This document shows, piece by piece, positions 5,563 to 64,000 of a stretch of 64,000 bases of DNA; the first letter of the stretch is position 1, and each line of letters opens with the position of its first letter. The notes beneath the pieces were generated by a model that worked only from the letters and a program-made list of their open reading frames with translations, ran no database searches and was not told where the DNA came from. The DNA lies in contig CABMPP010000004.1 of NCBI GenBank assembly GCA_902388495.1, positions 211,315-275,314 of the forward strand, read 5' to 3'. A program made the position numbers and the translations under genes. Source of the stretch: an uncultured Bacteroides sp. GTDB taxonomy: Bacteria; Bacteroidota; Bacteroidia; Bacteroidales; Bacteroidaceae.

Positions 5563-5925
5563 ATGAAAGGATTGACTGCGAAAGAAGAAGAACTCATGGG
5601 CTTTTTTTGGGAAAAAGGACCATTGTTTGTAAAGGAGATGCTGGCGTTCTATGAAGAGCCTAAGCCGCATTTCAATACTTTGTCTACCATTGTGAGAGGA
5701 CTGGAAGATAAAGGATTTCTGAGCCACAATACTTATGGCAATACTTATCAGTATTATGCTGTAGTGAGCGAAGAAGATTTCCGTAAGCGGACTCTGAAAA
5801 ATGTAATCAGCAAATACTTCAATAACTCCTATCTCAGTGCGGTGTCGTCTCTGGTGAAAGAGGAGGATATCTCATTGGAGGAACTGAAACAGCTGATACG
5901 GGACGTGGAGAAGGGAAAAAACTGA
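5563..5925 (+). CDS. BlaI/MecI/CopY-family repressor
   Basis: 120 residues with the Penicillinase_R winged-helix fold: LTAKEEELMGFFWEKGPLFV, NTLSTIVRGLEDKGFLSH, then a helical dimerisation tail. In the family, a BlaR1/MecR1 membrane sensor cleaves or inactivates the repressor. Here the partner M56 sensor is two genes downstream with a thioredoxin-like gene between. The cluster has no beta-lactamase or PBP2a gene, so the signal is probably envelope or redox stress rather than a beta-lactam response. Strong dyads lie just upstream. Confidence 0.9.
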   Translation: MKGLTAKEEELMGFFWEKGPLFVKEMLAFYEEPKPHFNTLSTIVRGLEDKGFLSHNTYGNTYQYYAVVSEEDFRKRTLKNVISKYFNNSYLSAVSSLVKEEDISLEELKQLIRDVEKGKN

Positions 5926-5954
5926 GATTATTGAGAACTTAATAACTCTTGCTT

Positions 5955-36804: not shown

Positions 36805-38343
36805 TTATTCCACTCCGTGCATCATCTTCTGCAATTTCTTTGAAAGCAGGAAGAGGATAAGCGATGCCGTGGCCGACATGATGACGAACACCATAAAGAA
36901 ATCGAACATCGTTTCAATGCGGTAACCAAGCAGCGTTTTCACCTTTCCGGCTTCGGGATAAAGACCGGTCAGCGTGCCTGCAAACTTGTTGGCGGTGGCG
37001 GTCGAGAGATACCATATACCCATCATCAGCGACGCGAAACGGATAGGCGTCAGCTTGTTTACCATCGACAAGCCGATGGGGGAGAGCACGATTTCGCCCA
37101 TTGTATGGATAAAGTAAAGTCCGGTTAGCCAGATGAGGCTCACTTTGACGCCGGGCTGCACATCTTTCACTCCGAAGCAGATGACCAGATAGCCCAGGGA
37201 GAGCAACAGCAGTCCGATGGCTTGTTTGGTGGGAGAAGCCGGTTCCAGTCCCCGTTGGTTGAGGAATCCCCATACTCCCGGCATGATGGCGGCCAATATC
37301 ACCACGAAGAACGGGTTGAAAGACTGTATCCACGATGCCGGCATTTCCCAGCCGAAGATTACGCGGTCGGTCTGCTCCGAGGCAAAGAGCGTCAGTGAGG
37401 CACCGGCTTGTTCGTAAGCCGCCCAGAAGAAGATGACGAAGAAGGCGATGATATAAATGACGAAGATACGGTCGCGTTCGATCTTGGTGAGCGAACCTTC
37501 CAGTAAGATGCTGACGGGGAACACGATGCAGGCGGTGAAGATGCCGATACTGATCCAATCATCGCCGAAACACCAATAGAAGAAAGAGGCGAGTGCAACG
37601 GTCAATATTCCGAGGATAATGTAATTGCGGAGTTTATTGCTCTTGTCCGCATCCATTTGGCTGATGGTCTTGGCGGCTTGCGGTTGTCCTTTCCGGGAAT
37701 CGGGGATAATGCCGAGTTGTTCTCCATCGGGGCCGATCAGGTATTTGTTCTTTTGCGTCTCGAACAAGATGACCGTGAACACCGTGACGATACCTGCAAT
37801 CAGAAAACCCCATTTGAAGTCGTTCGGATCGCCCGTCTCGCCGAAATATCCGCAAACCAGCGGGGCGAGGAAGGAGCCGACGTTGACACCCATATAGAAA
37901 ATGGTGTAGGCCGAATCCAGTCGTCGGTCTCCCGGCTTGTAGAGTTGTCCTACGAGGGAGGCTACGGTCGGCTTGAAACATCCGTTGCCTAATATAAGAA
38001 AGGTGAGCCCACCATACATCAGCCAGTGCGAGAGTTCCTTGGCTTCGAGCATGGAGGCGCTGGAGAACATCAGGAATTGTCCCACTGCCATCATCATCGC
38101 ACCCCAAAACACGGAACGACGGATGCCCCAGTATTTATCCGCGATATATCCGCCGATGAGCGGCGTCAGGTAAACCAGTCCGGTATAGCTGCCGTAGATG
38201 GAGGCGGCATGCTCTTTGTCGAACAGCAATGCCTGGGTTAAAAACAAGATGAAAATGGCGCGCATGCCATAGTAACTGAAACGCTCTGCCGTACTGGTAG
38301 CGAAGATAAGGTAAAGACCTTTGGGGTGCTTGGGTGTACTCAT
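36805..38343 (-). CDS. POT-family (PTR2) peptide transporter
   Basis: 512 residues with about 14 hydrophobic segments of the MFS peptide:H+ symporter family. AERFSYYGMRAIFILFLTQ and GNGCFKPTVASLVGQLY are the family signatures. It takes up di- and tripeptides using the proton gradient. It precedes hpt in the run. Confidence 0.95.
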   Translation of the reverse strand: MSTPKHPKGLYLIFATSTAERFSYYGMRAIFILFLTQALLFDKEHAASIYGSYTGLVYLTPLIGGYIADKYWGIRRSVFWGAMMMAVGQFLMFSSASMLEAKELSHWLMYGGLTFLILGNGCFKPTVASLVGQLYKPGDRRLDSAYTIFYMGVNVGSFLAPLVCGYFGETGDPNDFKWGFLIAGIVTVFTVILFETQKNKYLIGPDGEQLGIIPDSRKGQPQAAKTISQMDADKSNKLRNYIILGILTVALASFFYWCFGDDWISIGIFTACIVFPVSILLEGSLTKIERDRIFVIYIIAFFVIFFWAAYEQAGASLTLFASEQTDRVIFGWEMPASWIQSFNPFFVVILAAIMPGVWGFLNQRGLEPASPTKQAIGLLLLSLGYLVICFGVKDVQPGVKVSLIWLTGLYFIHTMGEIVLSPIGLSMVNKLTPIRFASLMMGIWYLSTATANKFAGTLTGLYPEAGKVKTLLGYRIETMFDFFMVFVIMSATASLILFLLSKKLQKMMHGVE

Positions 38344-38468: not shown

Positions 38469-38717
38469 TTAACAGCTGTTAGTAATAGAGCTCTCGTGGC
38501 GCCGTCACGTTAACGGCTGTTAGTAATAGAACTCTCGTGGCGCCTTCACGTTAACATCCGTTGGTAATAGAGCTCCCGTGGAGGCTTCCGTCGTCAAGGA
38601 AGGCTCCGCAAGAGCTCCCGTGGAGGTGTCCGTCGTCAAGGAAGGCTTCGCGAGAGCTCCCGTGGAGGTATCCATCGTCGAGGTAGGCTTCGCGAGAGCT
38701 CCCGTGGAGGCTTCCGG
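38469..38717. repeat. Hybrid minisatellite: three 41-bp and three and a half 42-bp units
   Basis: Three 41-bp units start at 38469, 38510 and 38551, each beginning TTAAC and containing GTAATAGARCTC. The third merges into 42-bp units starting at 38571, 38613, 38655 and 38697 (partial), each beginning AGCTCCCGTGGAGG. The shared word AGCTC(C/T)CGTGG suggests that one array grew from the other. The 633-bp spacer 38344-38976 has no convincing gene; a 76-residue frame (38578-38808) is built from the 42-bp unit, giving a 14-residue repeat. Confidence 0.85.
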
Positions 38718-38918
38718 GCATCATTTCATCCTCTGCGCTGCTAAATTCCCATTTGGCGCGCAGCCCTTTGTCGCCTTGTCAACCGGAATCTCATCAACCA
38801 ATTCATAGCCTGACAATTGTGAATCAATTCCGCCAACAGGTATTATTAAGTTTTTAAATTCAGTCTGCAAAATTAATTATTCTGTGCTTACATCCTTCTT
38901 TTTTTCGTCATTCTTTCG

Positions 38919-38950
38919 TTTGTTTTTTCTAACTATTCCCTTTACCTTTG
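38919..38950 (+). promoter_or_regulatory. Bacteroides-type promoter of nnr
   Basis: TTTG (38919-38922), a 20-bp spacer and TACCTTTG (38943-38950) match the consensus. It supports the ATG at 38977 instead of the longer frame from 38884. Confidence 0.75.
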
Positions 38951-38976
38951 CTTGGCAAAAAAAGAAGATTGACCCT

Positions 38977-40494
38977 ATGAAGATATTTCCCACAACAAGC
39001 ATCAAGCAACTGGATGCATATACGATAGAGAATGAACCGATTGCATCTATCGACCTGATGGAGCGTGCTGCCGAAGCATTGGCTAAAGCAATTTCAGAAC
39101 GTTGGAGTGCCGATACCCCGTTTACGGTTTTTGCCGGACCGGGGAATAACGGAGGCGATGCACTGGCAGTGTCCCGCCTCTTGGCGCAGAAGGGTTATAA
39201 ACCGGAAGTATATCTTTTCAATACCAAAGGTTCGCTCTCGCCGGATTGCGAGGCAAACAAAGAGAAACTGAACGGTGTGTCCGGTGTCGTTTTCCATGAA
39301 ATAACCTCGCAGTTTGTGCCGCCCACATTGACGGCGGATCATGTTGTTATCGACGGTTTGTTTGGCAGCGGACTGAACAAACCGCTGACCGGTGGCTTTG
39401 CCGCAGTGGTGAAATACATCAATGCTTCCTCTGCTACGGTGGTAGCCATCGACATCCCGTCGGGGCTGATGGGGGAAGACAATACCTATAATGTACAGTC
39501 AGGCATTATCCGTGCCGACCTCACGCTGAGCCTGCAACTGCCGAAGCTGGCATTCCTTTTTGCCGAAAACGAACCCTTTGTCGGCGAGTGGCAACTCCTG
39601 GATATCGGGCTGAGTGAAGATGCCATCGAGGAGATGGAAACCGACTACTATTTGCTGGAAAATGAAGATATGCCGTATCTGCTGAAGACTCGCGGCAGGT
39701 TTGCCCATAAAGGGAACTTCGGCCGTGCTTTGCTGATAGCCGGTTCGCAGGGGATGGCGGGGGCATCGGTGCTTGCCGCACGTGCCTGCCTGCGTTCGGG
39801 GGTGGGACTGCTGACGGTGCATGTGCCGTTCTGCAATAACTTCATTGTGCAGACTGCTGTGCCCGAGGCAATGACAGAGTTGGATGTCAGCGATACGTGT
39901 TTTGCTTCTTCTTCCGATGCTGACGATTATCAGGCGGTGGGCGTGGGCCCCGGACTGGGACAGGCAGAGGAAACGGAAGTTGCCTTATTTGAGCAGATAG
40001 ATGCTTGCTCTGTTCCTATGGTGCTAGATGCTGATGCGCTGAATCTCTTGGGAGAGAAACGCAGCTACCTCGGACGTCTGCCCAAAGGGAGCATTCTCAC
40101 TCCACATCCCAAGGAACTGGAACGCCTGGTAGGCAAGTGCCAGAACTCTTACGAACGCTTGACGAAAGCGCGTGAGCTGGCAAAGACTGCTGAGGTGCAT
40201 ATTATATTGAAGGGCGCTTACTCCGCTGTCATCACTCCGTCGGGCAAATGTTATTTCAACATTACGGGCAACCCCGGCATGGCGACGGGAGGCAGTGGCG
40301 ATGTGTTGACGGGCATACTGCTTGCTTTGCTGGCACAAGGATACGAGCCCGAAGCGGCTGCTTGCCTGGGTGCTTATGTGCATGGTCTGGCAGGGGATAT
40401 TGCCTGCAAGAAGCACGGTACCATCGGGATGACGGCAGGAGATATTGTTACTTGCCTGCCGCTGGCGTGGAGGATGCTGGAAGAAGAGGTATAG
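38977..40494 (+). CDS. nnr: Bifunctional NAD(P)HX epimerase / dehydratase
   Basis: 505 residues from ATG 38977. The N-terminal YjeF epimerase domain (about 1-215, GPGNNGGDALAVSRLL) is followed by a ribokinase-like ADP-dependent dehydratase domain (about 235-505, RGRFAHKGNFGRALLIAGSQGMAGA, LTPHPKELERL, NPGMATGGSGDVLTGI). It repairs hydrated NAD(P)H. It ends at a bidirectional hairpin terminator. Confidence 0.95.
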   Translation: MKIFPTTSIKQLDAYTIENEPIASIDLMERAAEALAKAISERWSADTPFTVFAGPGNNGGDALAVSRLLAQKGYKPEVYLFNTKGSLSPDCEANKEKLNGVSGVVFHEITSQFVPPTLTADHVVIDGLFGSGLNKPLTGGFAAVVKYINASSATVVAIDIPSGLMGEDNTYNVQSGIIRADLTLSLQLPKLAFLFAENEPFVGEWQLLDIGLSEDAIEEMETDYYLLENEDMPYLLKTRGRFAHKGNFGRALLIAGSQGMAGASVLAARACLRSGVGLLTVHVPFCNNFIVQTAVPEAMTELDVSDTCFASSSDADDYQAVGVGPGLGQAEETEVALFEQIDACSVPMVLDADALNLLGEKRSYLGRLPKGSILTPHPKELERLVGKCQNSYERLTKARELAKTAEVHIILKGAYSAVITPSGKCYFNITGNPGMATGGSGDVLTGILLALLAQGYEPEAAACLGAYVHGLAGDIACKKHGTIGMTAGDIVTCLPLAWRMLEEEV

Positions 40495-56712: not shown

Positions 56713-56815
56713 TGATTTGCTTTCTGCTCTAAACAGATTTTGCTTGTTTTTGCTTTCTGCTCTAAACAAATTCCTCTTATTTTTGCTTACCTCTCTAAAC
56801 AAATTTGTATATTTG
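56713..56815 (+). repeat. Three 33-bp direct repeats carrying -33-like TTTG elements
   Basis: The word CTCTAAACA occurs at 56727, 56760 and 56793, spaced exactly 33 bp, each preceded by TTTGCTT. The last copy leads into a -7-like TATATTTG (56808-56815), with TTTG at 56782-56785 22 bp before it. The ATPase gene starts at 56844. The array may be a set of regulator sites or duplicated promoter halves. Confidence 0.8.
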
Positions 56816-56843: not shown

Positions 56844-58043
56844 ATGGATAGTTTATTTTTAAAACAAGAGAGACTGTTGGCGCAAACAAGTACTGAAATA
56901 GTAAGGGAACTGATGAACAAGATTCATTGGGACAATCGTTTGATTGCTGTCAGAGGATCCCGCGGTGTAGGAAAAACCACTTTGATGCTGCAATATATCA
57001 AACTGAATTATCCGTCCGGAAGTCGCGATGTGCTCTATTGCACACTCGACAGTATTTATTTTAGTAATCATACGCTGCTCGAGTTGGTTGAGAAATTCTA
57101 TCTCCAAGGTGGTAAACACTTGTTTCTGGACGAAGTACATAAGTACCCCACCTGGAGTAAAGAACTCAAAGAGGTATACGATTTATATCCGTCTATGCGG
57201 ATTGTTTTCAGCGGTTCATCGTTGCTCAATATACTGAATGCGGATGCAGATCTTTCCAGAAGATGTTTACCCTATAATATGTATGGTCTGTCATTCCGTG
57301 AATTCTTGATGTTTTATAAGAATATCAATATCCCTACATATCTTTTGCCGGAAATTTTGGAGAATGCCGGTCACATTTGCCAGGAGATGAATGAACTGTG
57401 CCGACCGGTGCAGATGTTCAACGAGTACCTGCACGATGGCTACTATCCGTTTTTCACCGGCAATCGGGAAGATTATTATATAAGTATTGAGAATGTGGTA
57501 AACCTTATTCTGGAGCAGGAAATGCCTCTACTGTGTGGGGTTGATCCTGCTTATGTGAGAAAACTGAAGGCTTTGTTGGGCATTCTTGCTTCATCCGTTC
57601 CCTATGAAGTTGATATTACCAAGTTGGCAGGAACGATAGGGCTTACCCGGAACTCAGTAATTGCCTATCTTCAGAATTTGGACCGTGCTGAACTGCTTAA
57701 ATTGCTATATTCAGATATTGTTTCTGTTAAAAAGATGCAGAAGCCTGATAAGATTTATCTTCAGAATCCGAACTTGCTTTATGCCATCGCTTCTACATCC
57801 GTACAGATAGGTACGGCAAGAGAAACTTTTGTCGTCAGCCAGCTTGCTGTAAATCACGAGGTAGAATATGGCAAAACGCAAGGTGATTTCGTTGTCGACC
57901 ATAAATATACGTTTGAAGTAGGAGGTGCCGACAAAACCTTCAAACAGATTGCCGATTTGCCGGACTCTTTCATTCTTGCCGATAATATAGAATATGCTAC
58001 GGGCAAAAAACTGCCGTTGTGGATAGTGGGGTTGACGTATTAG
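56844..58043 (+). CDS. AAA-family ATPase with DUF4143-like C-terminus
   Basis: 399 residues. Walker A GSRGVGKTT (38-46), Walker B HLFLDEVHKYPTW (about 92-104), sensor-1 segment IVFSGSSLLNI. The C-terminal half includes a winged-helix-like EVDITKLAGTIGLTRNSVIAYLQNL, followed by a nuclease-like domain of DUF4143 proteins (YGKTQGDFVVDHKYTFEVGG). The role in the cell is unknown. Confidence 0.88.
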   Translation: MDSLFLKQERLLAQTSTEIVRELMNKIHWDNRLIAVRGSRGVGKTTLMLQYIKLNYPSGSRDVLYCTLDSIYFSNHTLLELVEKFYLQGGKHLFLDEVHKYPTWSKELKEVYDLYPSMRIVFSGSSLLNILNADADLSRRCLPYNMYGLSFREFLMFYKNINIPTYLLPEILENAGHICQEMNELCRPVQMFNEYLHDGYYPFFTGNREDYYISIENVVNLILEQEMPLLCGVDPAYVRKLKALLGILASSVPYEVDITKLAGTIGLTRNSVIAYLQNLDRAELLKLLYSDIVSVKKMQKPDKIYLQNPNLLYAIASTSVQIGTARETFVVSQLAVNHEVEYGKTQGDFVVDHKYTFEVGGADKTFKQIADLPDSFILADNIEYATGKKLPLWIVGLTY

Positions 58044-58050
58044 AATGTAT

Positions 58051-60234
58051 TTACTGCTTTTCTTGAATGCACCGAACGGGATGAGCATCGCTTCCATACA
58101 TTGATTTGTCTGTGAATATACCCGCACTTGTGTCACCATTATCCTTTGGTAACCGGTAGGCTATTCCCTGATTACTGTTACCTTTATTTCTGGTCCATAG
58201 CGTACACAAAATACCGATATAATCAAAGGTATTGAAATACCGTCCGTATCCGGTAAAGCGGAAGTAAGAAGTATGGGTATTGGTTGTTTCAAAGTAAACC
58301 AGAAATCCACCATCTTCCTCTCTGGTTGCAAAGTTTTTGATGTTTCTGTTTCCATAAGTCGGATCAGCCAATCCTGTTCCTTCCGCGACGATGGCTTTCA
58401 TTTCATCCTTAGATGCAATTCTCCATCCTGCCGGGCATGGATCCCAGACCGTTTTATTGGTGCCTCCCCATTTATCCGAATCACTATTACTCCATGCCGG
58501 CCCCTCTCCATTAGCAGCATAAAACGCTAATGGCTGTTGGCAAGATGCTTGTGGACTTACCGTTCCTTTTTTGCCTTCATTCTTCACATACGTTATTCCG
58601 TCTGCTTTGTATCTGTTCTGCATTCCATCGGGAGGAGTATCCGCATCTTTATTGTCTATTTTATTGTTTGGTATTTGCTTGATTGTGTAGCTGCTGGGAT
58701 ACGGGTCTTTACGCCCCCATTGATAATGGAAACCGTGCGTTTTAGACTTCTCTACAAAATCTTTAGGGGCTTCGTCAATGTATCCTGCCATGGCGCCCAG
58801 GTTGCGATCCATCATTGGAAGAACATTGGGGTTATTTTTTGTAAAACGTAGTTTTCGCTGATTGACAGGCTCATATACTGCTTCACTTCCGGTTGCTGAG
58901 GGATGATAATCCGTCACCCACACATGCCAGCTCCATACGATATTTCCCGTGCCGTCCTCTCCGTCGTAAGCGGCAATGGCTCCGCTGCCGCCCGAGGTGT
59001 TGGCGGCTACGCGGCAGTATATCAGGCATTGTCCTTTGTTGTTGGCCGGCACAGTTATGATACTACTGCCGTCCGTCCGCTTGATGTCTACAATATTGGT
59101 CTGGTCGCCTGTGGAGTTGGCAATGCCCATCACTGGGTCGCCCACATCTCCGTTCTCTCTGGTCTGCCAGAGAAGCTTTACAGATTTAATTCCTGTACCG
59201 GTGGTGTTATACCATCCCGTCATTTCAGTATTCGTTATCTCTGCACCATTTTGTTGATAAGCAAACGGGTCGAAACAGAATGCACCACCCGGAGCTACCA
59301 TAAAGCAGTTGGCGGTCGGCACTTTGTTGTCGTTATTCTCCGAAGCCGGGATAGGGTCTATGTACGTTACGCGCTTGTCATTGACGGGAATTCCCGTATG
59401 ACTGAAGTTTACGGTATAGACGTAATCTTTATTGAGATACATATTAAAATCGGTCGAAGCCCCCGAGCCGATGTAGACACGATAGTCCAGTTTCTTTTTG
59501 ATGTCTGCATCACTGGTGGCTACAAAGTTCAGGAAGCTGCTGCCCGTAGGTGCATTGGCTTTGATTCGTTGCAGATCCGAAGTCGCTGCTGCATTTTCGC
59601 CGCGTACATTGGCCGGTACCCACCATGAATACGAACCTTCTGCCGCATTGTCATCGGTTATTTTTGCTTCCAGTATTGTGAACTGTGATACGATGGAGGG
59701 GTAGGTGCCATCGCTTTCCGGCTTGTTTACGATGGCATAGTTCATGGGTACGCTTTGCAATAGCAGTTGTTTCAGCTTATAGCCCGATACCGTGTAGTTC
59801 CAGTTTACAGTCAGTCTCGTTGCCAGCCGTTTCAGCATCAGGCGGGCATCGTAACTACCGTCTATGCTTTGAATCACCGGTTTGTCATTGACAAGTGCCA
59901 CTTTTACATGTTCCAGATGAAGCACATAAGGCATGGCGTTCATGCCGTTCGTTGCGGCAGGATCAATCGCATTGATGGCGGACGAACTTACAGTCATGTC
60001 TTGTACCTCGCTCAACGACTTGCTTCCCAGTGTGCTCACAGCCGGGCCGCTTCCGCGGGCTACTATCACCAGCTGGCAATCGTCTCTTGTTGCCAGGGTA
60101 ACCTCCAGATGCTCGCCCACTTCTTTCGTTCCAAGTTCTCCTCCGGTCGACGGTATATAGCTACCATCCAGCTCGTACTGCCTGATTTCCAGATTGTAAA
60201 GTTTATCAGGAACATCCGTCGAGGCACGGGTCAT
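58051..60234 (-). CDS. FISUMP-type surface lipoprotein, body (out of frame with its signal peptide)
   Basis: 727 residues. The N-terminal part resembles fimbrillin-associated beta domains (YNLEIRQYELDGSYI, LMLKRLATRLTVNWNY). The C-terminal half resembles FISUMP/DUF4906 proteins: ANCFMVAPGGAFCFDPF (around 305), IVWSWHVWVTDY (around 435), MMDRNLGAMAGY (around 478), FHYQWGRKDPYPSSY (around 505), DPCPAGWRIAS (around 600) and the end HPVRCIQEKQ. The frame is open upstream of ATG 60234 through a palindrome into the 13-bp repeats and connects to the lipoprotein signal at 60278-60517 if the array loses one unit. As read, the gene would make no exported protein. Confidence 0.85.
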   Translation of the reverse strand: MTRASTDVPDKLYNLEIRQYELDGSYIPSTGGELGTKEVGEHLEVTLATRDDCQLVIVARGSGPAVSTLGSKSLSEVQDMTVSSSAINAIDPAATNGMNAMPYVLHLEHVKVALVNDKPVIQSIDGSYDARLMLKRLATRLTVNWNYTVSGYKLKQLLLQSVPMNYAIVNKPESDGTYPSIVSQFTILEAKITDDNAAEGSYSWWVPANVRGENAAATSDLQRIKANAPTGSSFLNFVATSDADIKKKLDYRVYIGSGASTDFNMYLNKDYVYTVNFSHTGIPVNDKRVTYIDPIPASENNDNKVPTANCFMVAPGGAFCFDPFAYQQNGAEITNTEMTGWYNTTGTGIKSVKLLWQTRENGDVGDPVMGIANSTGDQTNIVDIKRTDGSSIITVPANNKGQCLIYCRVAANTSGGSGAIAAYDGEDGTGNIVWSWHVWVTDYHPSATGSEAVYEPVNQRKLRFTKNNPNVLPMMDRNLGAMAGYIDEAPKDFVEKSKTHGFHYQWGRKDPYPSSYTIKQIPNNKIDNKDADTPPDGMQNRYKADGITYVKNEGKKGTVSPQASCQQPLAFYAANGEGPAWSNSDSDKWGGTNKTVWDPCPAGWRIASKDEMKAIVAEGTGLADPTYGNRNIKNFATREEDGGFLVYFETTNTHTSYFRFTGYGRYFNTFDYIGILCTLWTRNKGNSNQGIAYRLPKDNGDTSAGIFTDKSMYGSDAHPVRCIQEKQ

Positions 60235-60249
60235 GACTCCGGAGGTTAA

Positions 60250-60288
60250 GCTCGCGTTGAAGGCAGCTTGGCTGCCTTCAACGCGAGC
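60250..60288. repeat. Perfect 18-bp-arm palindrome at the 5' end of the lipoprotein body
   Basis: GCTCGCGTTGAAGGCAGC (60250-60267), centre TTG, GCTGCCTTCAACGCGAGC (60271-60288). Its right arm overlaps the first 13-bp unit by 5 nt. It is coding (VEGSQAAFN in the body frame) but would form a stable hairpin. The paralogue has a different palindrome at the same place. Confidence 0.95.
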
Positions 60289-60517
60289 CGTTTCGGCGAG
60301 CCGTTTCGGCGAGCCGTTTCGGCGAGCCGTTTCGGTATAACTCCCCGCTTGATTCTTCCGCGAATCCCAGATTGAGCGATACCGTCACCAGTTCGTCTTC
60401 GCTTGTAGGTGGCACCACTACGTCGTCTATTGGCTTTTCACATCCCGTCAGACCAACGGAAAAAGTGATCAGGCTCAATAAGAGCCCGAACAAATACCAT
60501 TTTAATATCTGCTTCAT
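60278..60517 (-). CDS. FISUMP-type surface lipoprotein, signal-peptide part
   Basis: 79 residues: a lipoprotein signal (MKQILKWYLFGLLLSLITFSVGLTGC, lipobox LTGC) and a short mature part (EKPIDDVVVPPTSEDELVTVSLNLGFAEESSG), then the repeat-encoded residues. In this copy-number state the frame ends at a TGA inside the palindrome. With three (or six) units of 13 bp the frame would run on into the 727-residue body. Confidence 0.85.
   Translation of the reverse strand: MKQILKWYLFGLLLSLITFSVGLTGCEKPIDDVVVPPTSEDELVTVSLNLGFAEESSGELYRNGSPKRLAETARRNGSR
60284..60335. repeat. 13-bp tandem repeat, four units, inside the lipoprotein gene
   Basis: Four exact copies of CGAGCCGTTTCGG at 60284, 60297, 60310 and 60323. 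The unit is stop-free in all three frames of the coding strand and has a length of 1 mod 3, so each gain or loss shifts frame. The phase arithmetic (signal frame 1, body frame 0) shows three or six copies give one continuous reading frame. Confidence 0.95.
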
Positions 60518-60696
60518 ATAAATAATATGTATTTAAGTTTGTTGATTTCGTTTCGGAATGTTGAAACATACTCCGTCTTGCCTCATGCATGCTTGATGCA
60601 CAAGGCAATACGGGGAATAATTTTAAGGACTGTGATTTAATTATATCTTTCTAATACTCTTCTGTCGTTTTTATAATCACAATGCTTCTTTCATTA

Positions 60697-60756
60697 CAAG
60701 GATAAAAATAAAATGCCAATCCGGATTGAATTTCCTGTTTTTTAGTTGGCTCATTC
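60697..60756 (-). repeat. 60-bp direct repeat, copy 1, with a -7-like box (TATCCTTG)
   Basis: Identical at 53 of 60 positions to 61455-61514. It overlaps the 3' end of the kinase-like gene and lies 180 bp upstream of the first lipoprotein gene. On the minus strand it ends in TATCCTTG, a near -7 element. It could be the lipoprotein gene's promoter region. Confidence 0.8.
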
Positions 60757-61382
60757 AATGAGCCTCTGTCTGATTTGGGTATCAATGAAATACAGTCTAT
60801 TGTCTATACCATATAATACATTGTTAGGTACAGCATCAAATATTTCATATTTTTCATTATGAAATTCATCACAATAATCCATCTCAAACCCTAATGCTTC
60901 CATATAATCAGCAATTTCTTCCTCTGTAGCTTCTCTTTTCGCTCTGACATAAGGCTGAACTAATACGGCACAAAATTCATACAAACTATTATAGGCAAAA
61001 CCAATTAAGGAATATGTTACATTGCTGAAGAAATGATTATGCGCTTCCATTCTGATGAAGAAGTTAGTTAAGTCATCACCTGCATATTCAAAATTATTTA
61101 GTTTGATTACTATGTCTTCATCACCGGTGAAAACTTCATTTTCTCCTCCTTTATTGAGGTATGATAAAGGGAGAGTATTAAAGTCAATCCATAAGCCATT
61201 AAGAGTGGCGAATTCTTTTAACTTTTCAATTTGCCCTCTCTTATAGCCTTCTGTCGGTTCAACATCTCTTGTTGCTTCTTTTTCTCTTCTAATGAGATTG
61301 GCTGCTTCTGCCAAGAGGCTATTGATTGCAGAGTGCTCTCTATCCATTGCTTATGAAATTCATTGATGTAAGTTCTTTCCAT
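60751..61382 (-). pseudogene. Polyvalent-kinase-like gene, apparently frameshifted
   Basis: The open frame 60751-61347 (198 residues) matches polyvalent/phage-type kinase-like proteins from QIEKLKEFATLNGLWIDF onward: YLNKGGENEVFTGDEDIVIKLNNFEY, SLIGFAYNSLYEFCAVLVQPYVRAKREATEEEIADYM and DAVPNNVLYGIDNRLYFIDTQI. A second frame from ATG 61382 (MERTYINEFHKQWIESTLQSIASW...QKAIREG) reads smoothly up to the same point, and one extra G in the run near 61234 would join the two into about 210 residues. So I read this as one gene broken by one base; the 198-residue frame may still be translated. Confidence 0.6.
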
Positions 61383-61454
61383 ACTTTAATCATATATCTA
61401 AAGTGATTAGTGCAAATGTAGCAAATCTTTCGAAAAGGATATCTACATCTCTTG

Positions 61455-61514
61455 CAAAGATAAAAATAAAACGCTAATCCGGCTTGAATTTCCTGCTTTT
61501 TAGTTGGTTTATTC
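61455..61514 (-). repeat. 60-bp direct repeat, copy 2, with a consensus -7 box (TATCTTTG)
   Basis: The partner of 60697-60756. On the minus strand it ends in TATCTTTG (61455-61462), 73 nt before ATG 61382, so it probably contains the promoter of the kinase-like gene. Confidence 0.8.
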
Positions 61515-61591: not shown

Positions 61592-64000
61592 TTAAGGTTT
61601 CTTCTGAATATTATCCTGTACGCATCTCACGGAGAAACCGAATTTCCAGTCAATGGGATGCGTTACTGATATTTGATTATCCTGAATCTGATAAATCAAC
61701 ATGGCACTTGTTTCTTTCGAGGCTCTTGTAGAGCTCCACAGATAGACTGTATTATTCTTCTTTGCACGATAAGTGCCGGCAGTAGAGCTGTTACTACTCA
61801 TCTCCCGAAGCGAAACTGCAGGAAAATATATCGACTTATCTCCAGTCGGTCCGGTTGATGTTCCATAATAGATAAAACCTGACCCTACATAGTCCGACTC
61901 ACGTACTGTGGAGGCATTGATAGAAAGTATATTCTGAGTGGTACCGTCATAATACATAATATTATCAAATGTCGGTTTGGCCGATTCACTGGCACCGGTA
62001 GCACCGTCGTTCATTCCGAATCCTGTCCACATGCAATATTTGAATGTGCCGTCATCCGTCTTTATTGAGGGATTATAATTTAAAAGCCCCGACGGTGTAA
62101 TACCATTGGAAGGTACCCTCCATCCCTTCGGACATGGGTCATAGATTGTTTTAGGCCCGTCTCCATTCCAATTATAAGAAGATTCTGGATACGAATAATT
62201 GCCACCCACAGCAAATGCTTTCGGGTTTTGTATTAGTGCTGCCACCGTAGTCAGCGTCTTTTTATCTATGTCTAACGGCTCTCCTGCACCATCGTAAATT
62301 GTCTTCGTATTCTTCGTCGTTCCGTCTGCTGCTGCAAAAAACGGGTCTTTGCGTCCGCCTTGATACAGCAAGCCGAGGGTACGCTGTCCATCGGTCTGAT
62401 TATCTTGTATGCCGGCTCTCGTAGCTCCCAGGTTACGGTCCATAATGACACATTTGTAGAAAGCTCCGGCGGGATCTGTCCACGATATGCCCTGGTATAC
62501 CTGTACCGCCCCATTTTGAGTAGCATTTTGGGCACTCGATATTGCCGTTGCACGCGAAGAAGCATTTACCACACTTGCTGCATCCAATCCTTTAGGCACA
62601 TAGTCACTAATCCAGATATGCCAACTCCAAACAATAATTCCCGAAGCATTACGGGCTGCAATTACTGCATTACCGCCATTCGTTACAGGCACTTTCACAT
62701 GTACCAGCGCTTTATTAATATCACTTATATCAGAGGTATTCACCAAGTTTTCATGATGGTCATCGTCTATCACATACCCCATTACCAAATCACCGGAAGT
62801 TCCCGTATCTTTGGTCTGCCATAACACCTCGACTGTAGCAATCTTTTTATCTGTCGTCAAAGTCGTTCCATCTGTCAGATACGTATTCCATCCGTTTGTC
62901 CCCGCACTGTGCTTGTACGGATTAAAGCATATATTCGTGCCCGGCTGCATCATGAAGCAATTCGATGTCTCCACGAGGTTCACACTCTTCACCGGGGTCT
63001 GGTCCAGTAGCTGGATGCGTCCGTCCTCCCGATAGTTGGCCGATTTGATGTTGAATGTCCAGTTGTAATCCGTGTTTTCGTAAAGGTTGAAATCCGTAGG
63101 TTGATCGCCGCCCAGATAGGCACGATAGTAAAGGCGTTCTTGCTTCACTGCGTTATCCACTACCAACTCTACGTACGAGGCTGCGATGGGTGCATTCTCT
63201 TTTGTACGATAGCGGTCGGAGGTAGCTTTTGCAGAAGTACCACGCACATTGGCAGGTATCCAGATTGTTTTCTGCCCTTTATTCAACTCTTCAGCAGACG
63301 TCAGTCGGTAAGGGTCAATGAATTCTGCGATGGTGGTCGGGTAGGTGGTTCCCCATTCATTTTTTTCTGTGGTGGGGAGTAGACGGTAATCTTTGGGGAC
63401 TTGGCATAGTCTTATTTCTTTCAGCGTATAGCCGTTGTTTTTCATTGATTCGTCGAATGTCCAGTTCACCGTCAGTTTAGCCGCCAGTCGTTTTAGGCGT
63501 AGGCGGACGTCGTAGGCACCTTCCGGGCTTTGAATTACATATTTGTTGGCGGCATCATCTTTCACTACATTCACGTGCTCCAGATGAAGTATGTAGGGCA
63601 TGGCATTCAGACTACCCGATGTAGGATCTATCGCGTCTATTACTGTTGATGTGGCAAGTGTATTCCGTATTTCCTGCAAGGATTTATTGGTTGCGATGCT
63701 CGATACTGCATTTCCGTTTCCCCGGGCCAGTAGCAGCAGTTGGCAGTCGTTCTTAGCTTGTAGGTTTACTGTTATTGGTGCGCCTGTGCTTACACTGCCT
63801 ATGGTTTGCTTTGTCACATAGTTTCCGTTCGAGTCATACTGCACTATTTCCAGATTGTATAAGCCATCCGGCACGGGTGAGGAAATACGTGTATTGGCGT
63901 GAGGTGCGAGTTTCGCCTCGAAGGAGGCATTGCCTCCTTCGAGGCGAGCCCGGAGCGGGAGCCCGGAGCGGGAGCCCGGAGCGGGAGCCCGGAGCGGGAG
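61592..64000 (-). CDS. Second FISUMP-type surface lipoprotein, 5' end beyond the window
   Basis: At least 760 residues (from a GTG at 63874), and the frame stays open through a palindrome and the 13-bp array to the window edge. It aligns with the first gene throughout: ARLEGGNASFEAKL...NTRISSPVPDGLYNLEI versus ARVEGSQAAFNASL...MTRASTDVPDKLYNLEI. FISUMP segments: SNCFMMQPGTNICFNPY, IVWSWHIWISDYVP, IMDRNLGATRAG, DPCPKGWRVPS and FSVRCVQDN. Probably a surface or fimbria-associated lipoprotein. The signal peptide lies outside the window. Confidence 0.85.
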   Translation of the reverse strand, partial: LPLRAPAPGSRSGLPLRARLEGGNASFEAKLAPHANTRISSPVPDGLYNLEIVQYDSNGNYVTKQTIGSVSTGAPITVNLQAKNDCQLLLLARGNGNAVSSIATNKSLQEIRNTLATSTVIDAIDPTSGSLNAMPYILHLEHVNVVKDDAANKYVIQSPEGAYDVRLRLKRLAAKLTVNWTFDESMKNNGYTLKEIRLCQVPKDYRLLPTTEKNEWGTTYPTTIAEFIDPYRLTSAEELNKGQKTIWIPANVRGTSAKATSDRYRTKENAPIAASYVELVVDNAVKQERLYYRAYLGGDQPTDFNLYENTDYNWTFNIKSANYREDGRIQLLDQTPVKSVNLVETSNCFMMQPGTNICFNPYKHSAGTNGWNTYLTDGTTLTTDKKIATVEVLWQTKDTGTSGDLVMGYVIDDDHHENLVNTSDISDINKALVHVKVPVTNGGNAVIAARNASGIIVWSWHIWISDYVPKGLDAASVVNASSRATAISSAQNATQNGAVQVYQGISWTDPAGAFYKCVIMDRNLGATRAGIQDNQTDGQRTLGLLYQGGRKDPFFAAADGTTKNTKTIYDGAGEPLDIDKKTLTTVAALIQNPKAFAVGGNYSYPESSYNWNGDGPKTIYDPCPKGWRVPSNGITPSGLLNYNPSIKTDDGTFKYCMWTGFGMNDGATGASESAKPTFDNIMYYDGTTQNILSINASTVRESDYVGSGFIYYGTSTGPTGDKSIYFPAVSLREMSSNSSTAGTYRAKKNNTVYLWSSTRASKETSAMLIYQIQDNQISVTHPIDWKFGFSVRCVQDNIQKKP
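63913..63947. repeat. Perfect 17-bp-arm palindrome in the second lipoprotein gene
   Basis: Arms TCGCCTCGAAGGAGGCA (63913-63929) and TGCCTCCTTCGAGGCGA (63931-63947) around a single T. It is at the same place, just beside the 13-bp array, as the palindrome of the first gene, but the sequence is different. Confidence 0.95.
63946..64000. repeat. 13-bp tandem repeat, at least four units, in the second lipoprotein gene
   Basis: GAGCCCGGAGCGG at 63946, 63959, 63972 and 63985, then GAG at the window edge. The period is again 13, not a multiple of three, and no frame has a stop. The unit differs from that of the first gene apart from GAGCC and CGG. Confidence 0.93.

Follow-up and report, generated by a model that had tools for sequence, protein, structure and literature searches.

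At the contingency loci of Neisseria, Haemophilus, Helicobacter, and Mycoplasma, surface genes are switched ON and OFF by slipped-strand mispairing of short tandem repeats, with units of mostly 1-8 bp. A similar case is neuO, the capsule O-acetyltransferase gene of E. coli K1: its repeat, a heptanucleotide, has a length not divisible by three, and the copy number sets expression. Here we describe a locus of this general kind in a stretch of 64,000 nucleotides from an uncultured Bacteroides sp. (GenBank assembly GCA_902388495.1, contig CABMPP010000004.1, positions 211,315 to 275,314; "the window" below means this whole stretch). The gene encodes a predicted type V pilus (tip-like) adhesin, and gains and losses of its 13-bp units likely switch it ON and OFF, most probably through slipped-strand mispairing; we put the probability of this at about 86%. 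The locus shares with neuO a unit length that three does not divide, and with the contingency loci a likely slipped-strand switch of a surface gene. Unlike the contingency loci, it and its relatives have units of 13 and 11 bp, a palindrome lies at the edge of the array at 7 of 10 loci, and the hosts are Bacteroides. It is also unlike neuO, which is reportedly a prophage gene with a 7-bp unit and no palindrome.

In gut Bacteroides, phase variation is known chiefly as DNA inversion. The invertible promoters of the fin regions and the capsule loci also turn surface structures ON and OFF at random, and there it is the promoter region that flips (PMC3090145, PMC12632263). In contrast, at our locus the reading frame changes and no promoter is inverted, so if B. 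fragilis, B. oleiciplenus, and their relatives do switch pilin-like genes in this way, tools that look for inversions would overlook it. Slippage in a homopolymer has been suggested for a polysaccharide locus of B. fragilis (PMC3090145). The available portion of the literature on Bacteroides phase variation and repeats (subscription papers and preprints are outside this scope) mentions no pilin switch based on repeat number, and no 13- or 11-bp version edged by a palindrome. Phase variation by repeat number is itself already known. The product resembles Mfa3 and FimA of Porphyromonas gingivalis and Bacteroides pilins in its predicted fold and, tentatively, in a putative lipoprotein start and an arginine or lysine just ahead of the position where the FimA pilus chain begins to align. 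It differs from known type V pilins by a far longer C-terminal part, by belonging to DUF4906, and by having repeats in the predicted prepeptide.

On the gene strand (the minus strand), the signal ATG at 60517 is followed by the array, the palindrome, and the body (Table 1). An initial annotation, made from the sequence alone, had described four 13-bp units that join a lipoprotein signal frame to a 727-residue body, and the positions from Tandem Repeats Finder (TRF) and from the open reading frames (ORFs) agree. There are 283 bases from the signal ATG to the body start, which leaves a remainder of 1 when divided by three, so the signal and the body are out of frame and this copy is OFF in that sense, as had been proposed. 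Also as described, the 79-codon signal ORF ends at a TGA within the palindrome. The unit had been said to be free of stop codons in every frame, and indeed the array has none in any of the three. For periods of 8-20, the longest exact run in the window is 42 (at period 13), versus 8-13 in 20 first-order Markov copies. Units that are not divisible by three, and that lie within a coding frame, are found at several loci: 13 bp in the window and at the related loci L032, L042, and L003, and 11 bp at L041.

Natural protein alleles show that copy number sets the frame. (Three protein searches, each scoring a capped set of candidates, gave at least 617, 651, and 544 matches, of which 120 each are listed; P numbers denote these proteins.) P0001 (817 amino acids, from ENA, with 13 member sequences on 4 contigs) is identical to the window's body at 727 of 727 residues and has the same signal residues. 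Its repeat peptide corresponds to three units and it is in frame, while the window has four units and is out of frame. This agrees with the initial annotation, in which every unit moves the frame by one base and an array of three was expected to yield a protein of some 800 residues. Similarly, P0027 (804 amino acids) has three units and is in frame, while L032 has 13 units and is out of frame, yet they differ at just 1 of 716 residues. Within a B. fragilis-type series of in-frame alleles (P0055, P0056, P0058, and P0060, two of which carry B. fragilis as the source name), lengths of 784, 797, 810, and 823 amino acids correspond to 1, 4, 7, and 10 units, and each successive pair differs by a single 13-residue gap with zero mismatches. 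P0080 and P0083 differ by 13 residues, and P0091 and P0092 by 26, in otherwise the same way. In a sister lineage with the 11-bp unit, P0247 and P0249 differ by 11 residues, as expected from three 11-bp units. Because these proteins are identical outside one gap of 11 residues or one or two steps of 13, the count of units changes more rapidly than the remaining protein sequence. (P0060 and P0111, which has 13 units, have further differences outside the array.) Since the array lies between the signal and the body, and alleles of the same protein are in or out of frame depending on the repeat number, the gene is likely to be ON or OFF accordingly.

Among the 120 proteins listed of the 617 found for the window's body, patterns for the repeat and the signal sorted 78; the other 42 did not fit. 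Proteins with a signal had 3, 6, or 9 units in one haplotype (34, 7, and 2 proteins) and 1, 4, 7, 10, or 13 units in another (1, 7, 2, 1, and 1 proteins). Another 9 proteins, of the window's type, have three units; 8 of these were missed by the regular expression for the signal, which is present by eye. Ten window-type calls lack the signal (one unit in 9 of them, seven units in the other), and 4 additional calls begin at internal starts. Headless DUF4906 calls thus stand beside full-length calls of the same type, and gene callers render out-of-frame copies in just this headless form. That each haplotype has one remainder modulo three among its in-frame proteins is partly forced by gene calling; in our view, the informative part of this survey is the wide range of unit numbers in otherwise identical proteins. 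The remainder that puts a protein in frame differs between two B. fragilis-type haplotypes, with LKTG or VKTG after the array (e.g., P0044 and P0056); a further frame-changing difference therefore lies just beyond the array.

A search of genome contigs for related loci found 19, and 13 distant relatives (L007-L019) were set aside. A search of the genus found 17 places in 7 of 158 genomes. In the initial annotation, a copy number that is always four would have counted against the switch; instead, it is 1, 4, 5, 8, 9, or 13 in the DNA of relatives, and 1-13 in proteins. We computed the frame at nine loci: L005 and L040 are in frame, one locus has a broken signal, and the remaining six (the window, L032, L042, L003 at 1754, L041, and L044) are out of frame. 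No array was found at L033, L034, L043, L045, L046, L047, or L048. Within the 158 genomes, the pattern GGCTCGCC-N5-GGCTCGCC has 28 occurrences in 4 genomes, and 25 of these are just upstream of a DUF4906-type body; the other 3, in genome G127, lie behind a similar signal at a contig end. The 11-bp pattern has 7 occurrences in one genome. Across 393 genomes of the order, the GGCTCGCC-type pattern was found only in G001 and at one single, non-tandem place in G448, with other units (such as the window's second) not searched for. Two scans of viral contigs gave 0 matches to a virus-borne version, and a plasmid scan gave 0 near matches.

Table 1. Coordinates of the repeat arrays, palindromes, and coding frames in the window, and the state of the array at related loci
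Feature	Position	Strand	Remarks
13-bp tandem array, gene-strand unit CCGAAACGGCTCG, 4.1 copies	60283..60335	-	TRF: period 13, 100% match
Perfect palindrome, 18-bp arms 60250-60267 and 60271-60288 (18/18 paired), 3-nt loop	60250..60288	.	Downstream edge of the array
Frame of the lipoprotein signal and first strand, 79 codons	60278..60517	-	Out of frame relative to the body; ORF list; lipobox LTGC by eye
727-residue body, DUF4906 (PF16249): pilin-fold region and C-terminal part	58051..60234	-	ORF; fold from the identical body of P0001
Second 13-bp array, unit GAGCCCGGAGCGG, gene-strand unit CTCCCGCTCCGGG, 4.2 copies	63946..64000	-	TRF; reaches the window edge
Palindrome of the second array, 17-bp arms, 1-nt loop	63913..63947	.	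Precedes the paralogous body on the gene strand
760-residue paralogous DUF4906 body	61592..63874	-	ORF list, family match; signal beyond the window
L032: exact array, 13 x 13 bp			Out of frame
L042: exact array, 5 x 13 bp			Out of frame
L003 (B. fragilis S82): two exact arrays, 9 x 13 and 4 x 13 bp			
L041 (B. oleiciplenus): exact array, 8.5 x 11 bp			Out of frame
L005 (B. fragilis Q1F2): single unit only			In frame
L040: single unit only			In frame
L044: single unit only			Out of frame
L052 (G127): at least four units			Contig G127:C99 ends inside the array
L002: degenerate			In frame
L036: interrupted by contig end			

We propose that slipped-strand gain or loss of units would move a cell among one in-frame and two out-of-frame states. 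In the window's out-of-frame state, the product would retain the signal and stop in the palindrome, and the body would be left without a signal. The unit number would change frequently and reversibly in growing cells, and to judge from the anatomy of the locus, replication slippage, probably aided by the adjoining palindrome, would make these changes. The product is presumably located on the cell surface. Array length modulo three could then be a cheap readout of the likely surface state in isolates and metagenomes.

Several points weigh against such a switch. The alleles that we compared are from different samples rather than from reads or single colonies, the unit numbers of all the P entries were read from protein instead of DNA, and short-read assemblies can miscount arrays or break in them (as at G127:C99). 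The close family is in just 7 of the 158 genomes of the genus. L044 is out of frame despite having a single unit. In the second copy at L003 (6001; array copy 5898-5952), the distance is a multiple of three, yet the signal is frameshifted and the ORF from the ATG has just 17 codons' worth of protein (17 amino acids); its body also has the highest omega (the ratio of nonsynonymous to synonymous divergence, dN/dS) that we measured, 0.32 versus L005. Some copies, such as these two, may be decaying. A signal-less body may be made from an internal start when the gene is out of frame. The putative cleavage site (residues 92-94 of P0001) was modelled with low confidence (predicted local distance difference test, pLDDT, below 50). 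Finally, the palindrome as a necessary part of the system is ruled out by B. fragilis loci that lack long arms (8 bp). Arrays of the B. fragilis type vary anyway, so the palindrome, even if it assists, is dispensable.

Some of these points would fit slow length polymorphism among strains, in which the number of units drifts as lineages evolve and any out-of-frame copy is a recent loss rather than one state of a switch used within populations: the alleles, taken from database entries and genomes, may all belong to different clones, and both L044 and the extra frameshift at L003 would be natural outcomes. We consider this unlikely, because the unit number outpaces the rest of the protein, because unit lengths that are not divisible by three are kept at several loci in several species, and because the out-of-frame body of L041 is conserved relative to its in-frame ortholog L040 (dN = 0.037, dS = 0.215, omega = 0.17). 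For another pair, L003a and L005, omega is 0.20, and for the array-free pair L034 and L033, it is 0.16. (The comparisons of WINa to L032 and of L044 to L041 are saturated and give no omega.) By these ratios, purifying selection acts on those out-of-frame bodies for which an omega was obtained. The initial annotation had asked if the locus was decayed in relatives, and the values of 0.17 and 0.20 speak against that.

It is very improbable that expression is constant because ribosomes regain the frame at the array or the hairpin (programmed frameshifting), with copy number irrelevant. There is a stable hairpin just past the array (predicted at -35.6 kcal/mol as RNA), but no shift is needed to bring the frames together at two single-unit loci or in the relatives that lack an array, and full-length proteins with arrays have one remainder modulo three per haplotype (which is partly an artefact of gene calling). 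An assembly or sequencing artefact, with a fixed true number and collapse or expansion producing the variation, can be dismissed almost entirely: one contig (G127:C99) does terminate in an array, but long arrays are on long contigs (13 units at L032 on a 6.9-Mb contig; P0111, whose longest contig is 3.9 Mb), a single unit is present in a complete genome (NZ_CP018937.1), and the window's array, at 53 bp, is below the usual length of short reads.

Returning to the switch by gain and loss of units, the palindrome beside the array has perfect arms of 17-21 bp at seven loci (two in the window, L032, L042, L041, L040, and L044). Within 200 bases, and allowing loops of up to 12, arms are just 8 bp at three B. 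fragilis loci and 4-7 bp at nine others. The long arms vary in sequence (6 of 18 positions among WINa, L032, L042, and L041), and the partner arm varies in step. Residue pairs that are encoded by facing codons covary: V-N 21 times, L-E 7, A-S 7, and S-R 3, with one exception, V-T (P0029). (This is based on 39 motif-bearing proteins among 274; they are related to one another and contain 14 different peptides, and the codons for A-S and S-R are inferred.) Most simply, this would mean that the palindrome is maintained as DNA, either by selection or by template-switch correction. More speculatively, and with odds that we would place somewhat below even, array and palindrome might form a slippage cassette: a hairpin kept perfect at the DNA level, its two arms changing in concert although they code for protein, would stall replication or make it fold back at the edge of the 11- or 13-bp array and drive the change in units, and removal of the prepeptide, in which the cassette sits, would make the switch scarless. 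If so, individual cells would differ in the combination of pilus tips that they carry, because a genome has several tandem paralogs.

We also considered a mobile or REP-like (repetitive extragenic palindromic) repeat. Exact patterns of both palindrome types occur only at these loci (in 2 of 15 genomes each), so there is no sign of a dispersed element. Nor does the palindrome resemble an inverton: it is located between the signal and body frames, and the 3 nt that separate its arms leave nothing to invert. P0012 and P0015 begin with residues that look as if the start of the body had been read in reverse complement and fused to the hairpin peptide, which fits either a fold-back at the palindrome or a chimeric assembly. 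P0013 and P0242 are in frame with most of the palindrome gone, which suggests that it can be lost.

The predicted structure of P0001, whose body is identical to the window's, has a two-domain pilin fold like that of type V pilins, and both bodies in the window match DUF4906. (A sequence search of PDB with alignment gave one match, with E = 0.2, which we judged to be due to chance.) In the structural comparison, the alignment with the FimA pilus chain (6kmf_B) begins at residue 94 of P0001, within the low-pLDDT stretch noted above, and the column of R93, in the same stretch, has arginine or lysine in 44 of 52 sequences (31 R, 13 K). The repeats would precede this predicted Arg maturation site, in a flexible stretch of the N-terminal prepeptide, and all in-frame alleles would then yield the same mature form. 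Given this fold alignment, extra in-frame units would be removed with the prepeptide, which would leave two outcomes, a mature pilin or none. If true, this would explain why variation in in-frame length is tolerated. Mfa_like_1 fimbrillins are encoded near L005 (3 of 4 scanned ORFs) and L001 (3 of 5, including one below the cut-off).

The window's second locus has the same layout as the first on the gene strand (array, palindrome, and body), with a different 13-bp unit. Between the two DUF4906 paralogs is a Kinase-PolyVal (PF18762) gene at 60751-61347, and a 63-nt direct repeat flanks it (60694-60756 and 61452-61514, 87%). ATPase-type genes recurrently adjoin the pilin paralogs: at 4000-5607 of L003, at 8235-9785 of L001, and at 56844-58043 of the window (AAA_14 for the window's gene; the others were named by eye). 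Upstream of the window's AAA_14 gene, a 33-bp repeat has 2.8 copies (56716-56806). Farther away, a GC-rich array of 41/42-bp repeats (38469-38716) lies between divergent genes, a transporter-like ORF (36805-38343, minus strand) and a carbohydrate-kinase-like ORF (38884-40494, plus strand), both named by eye.
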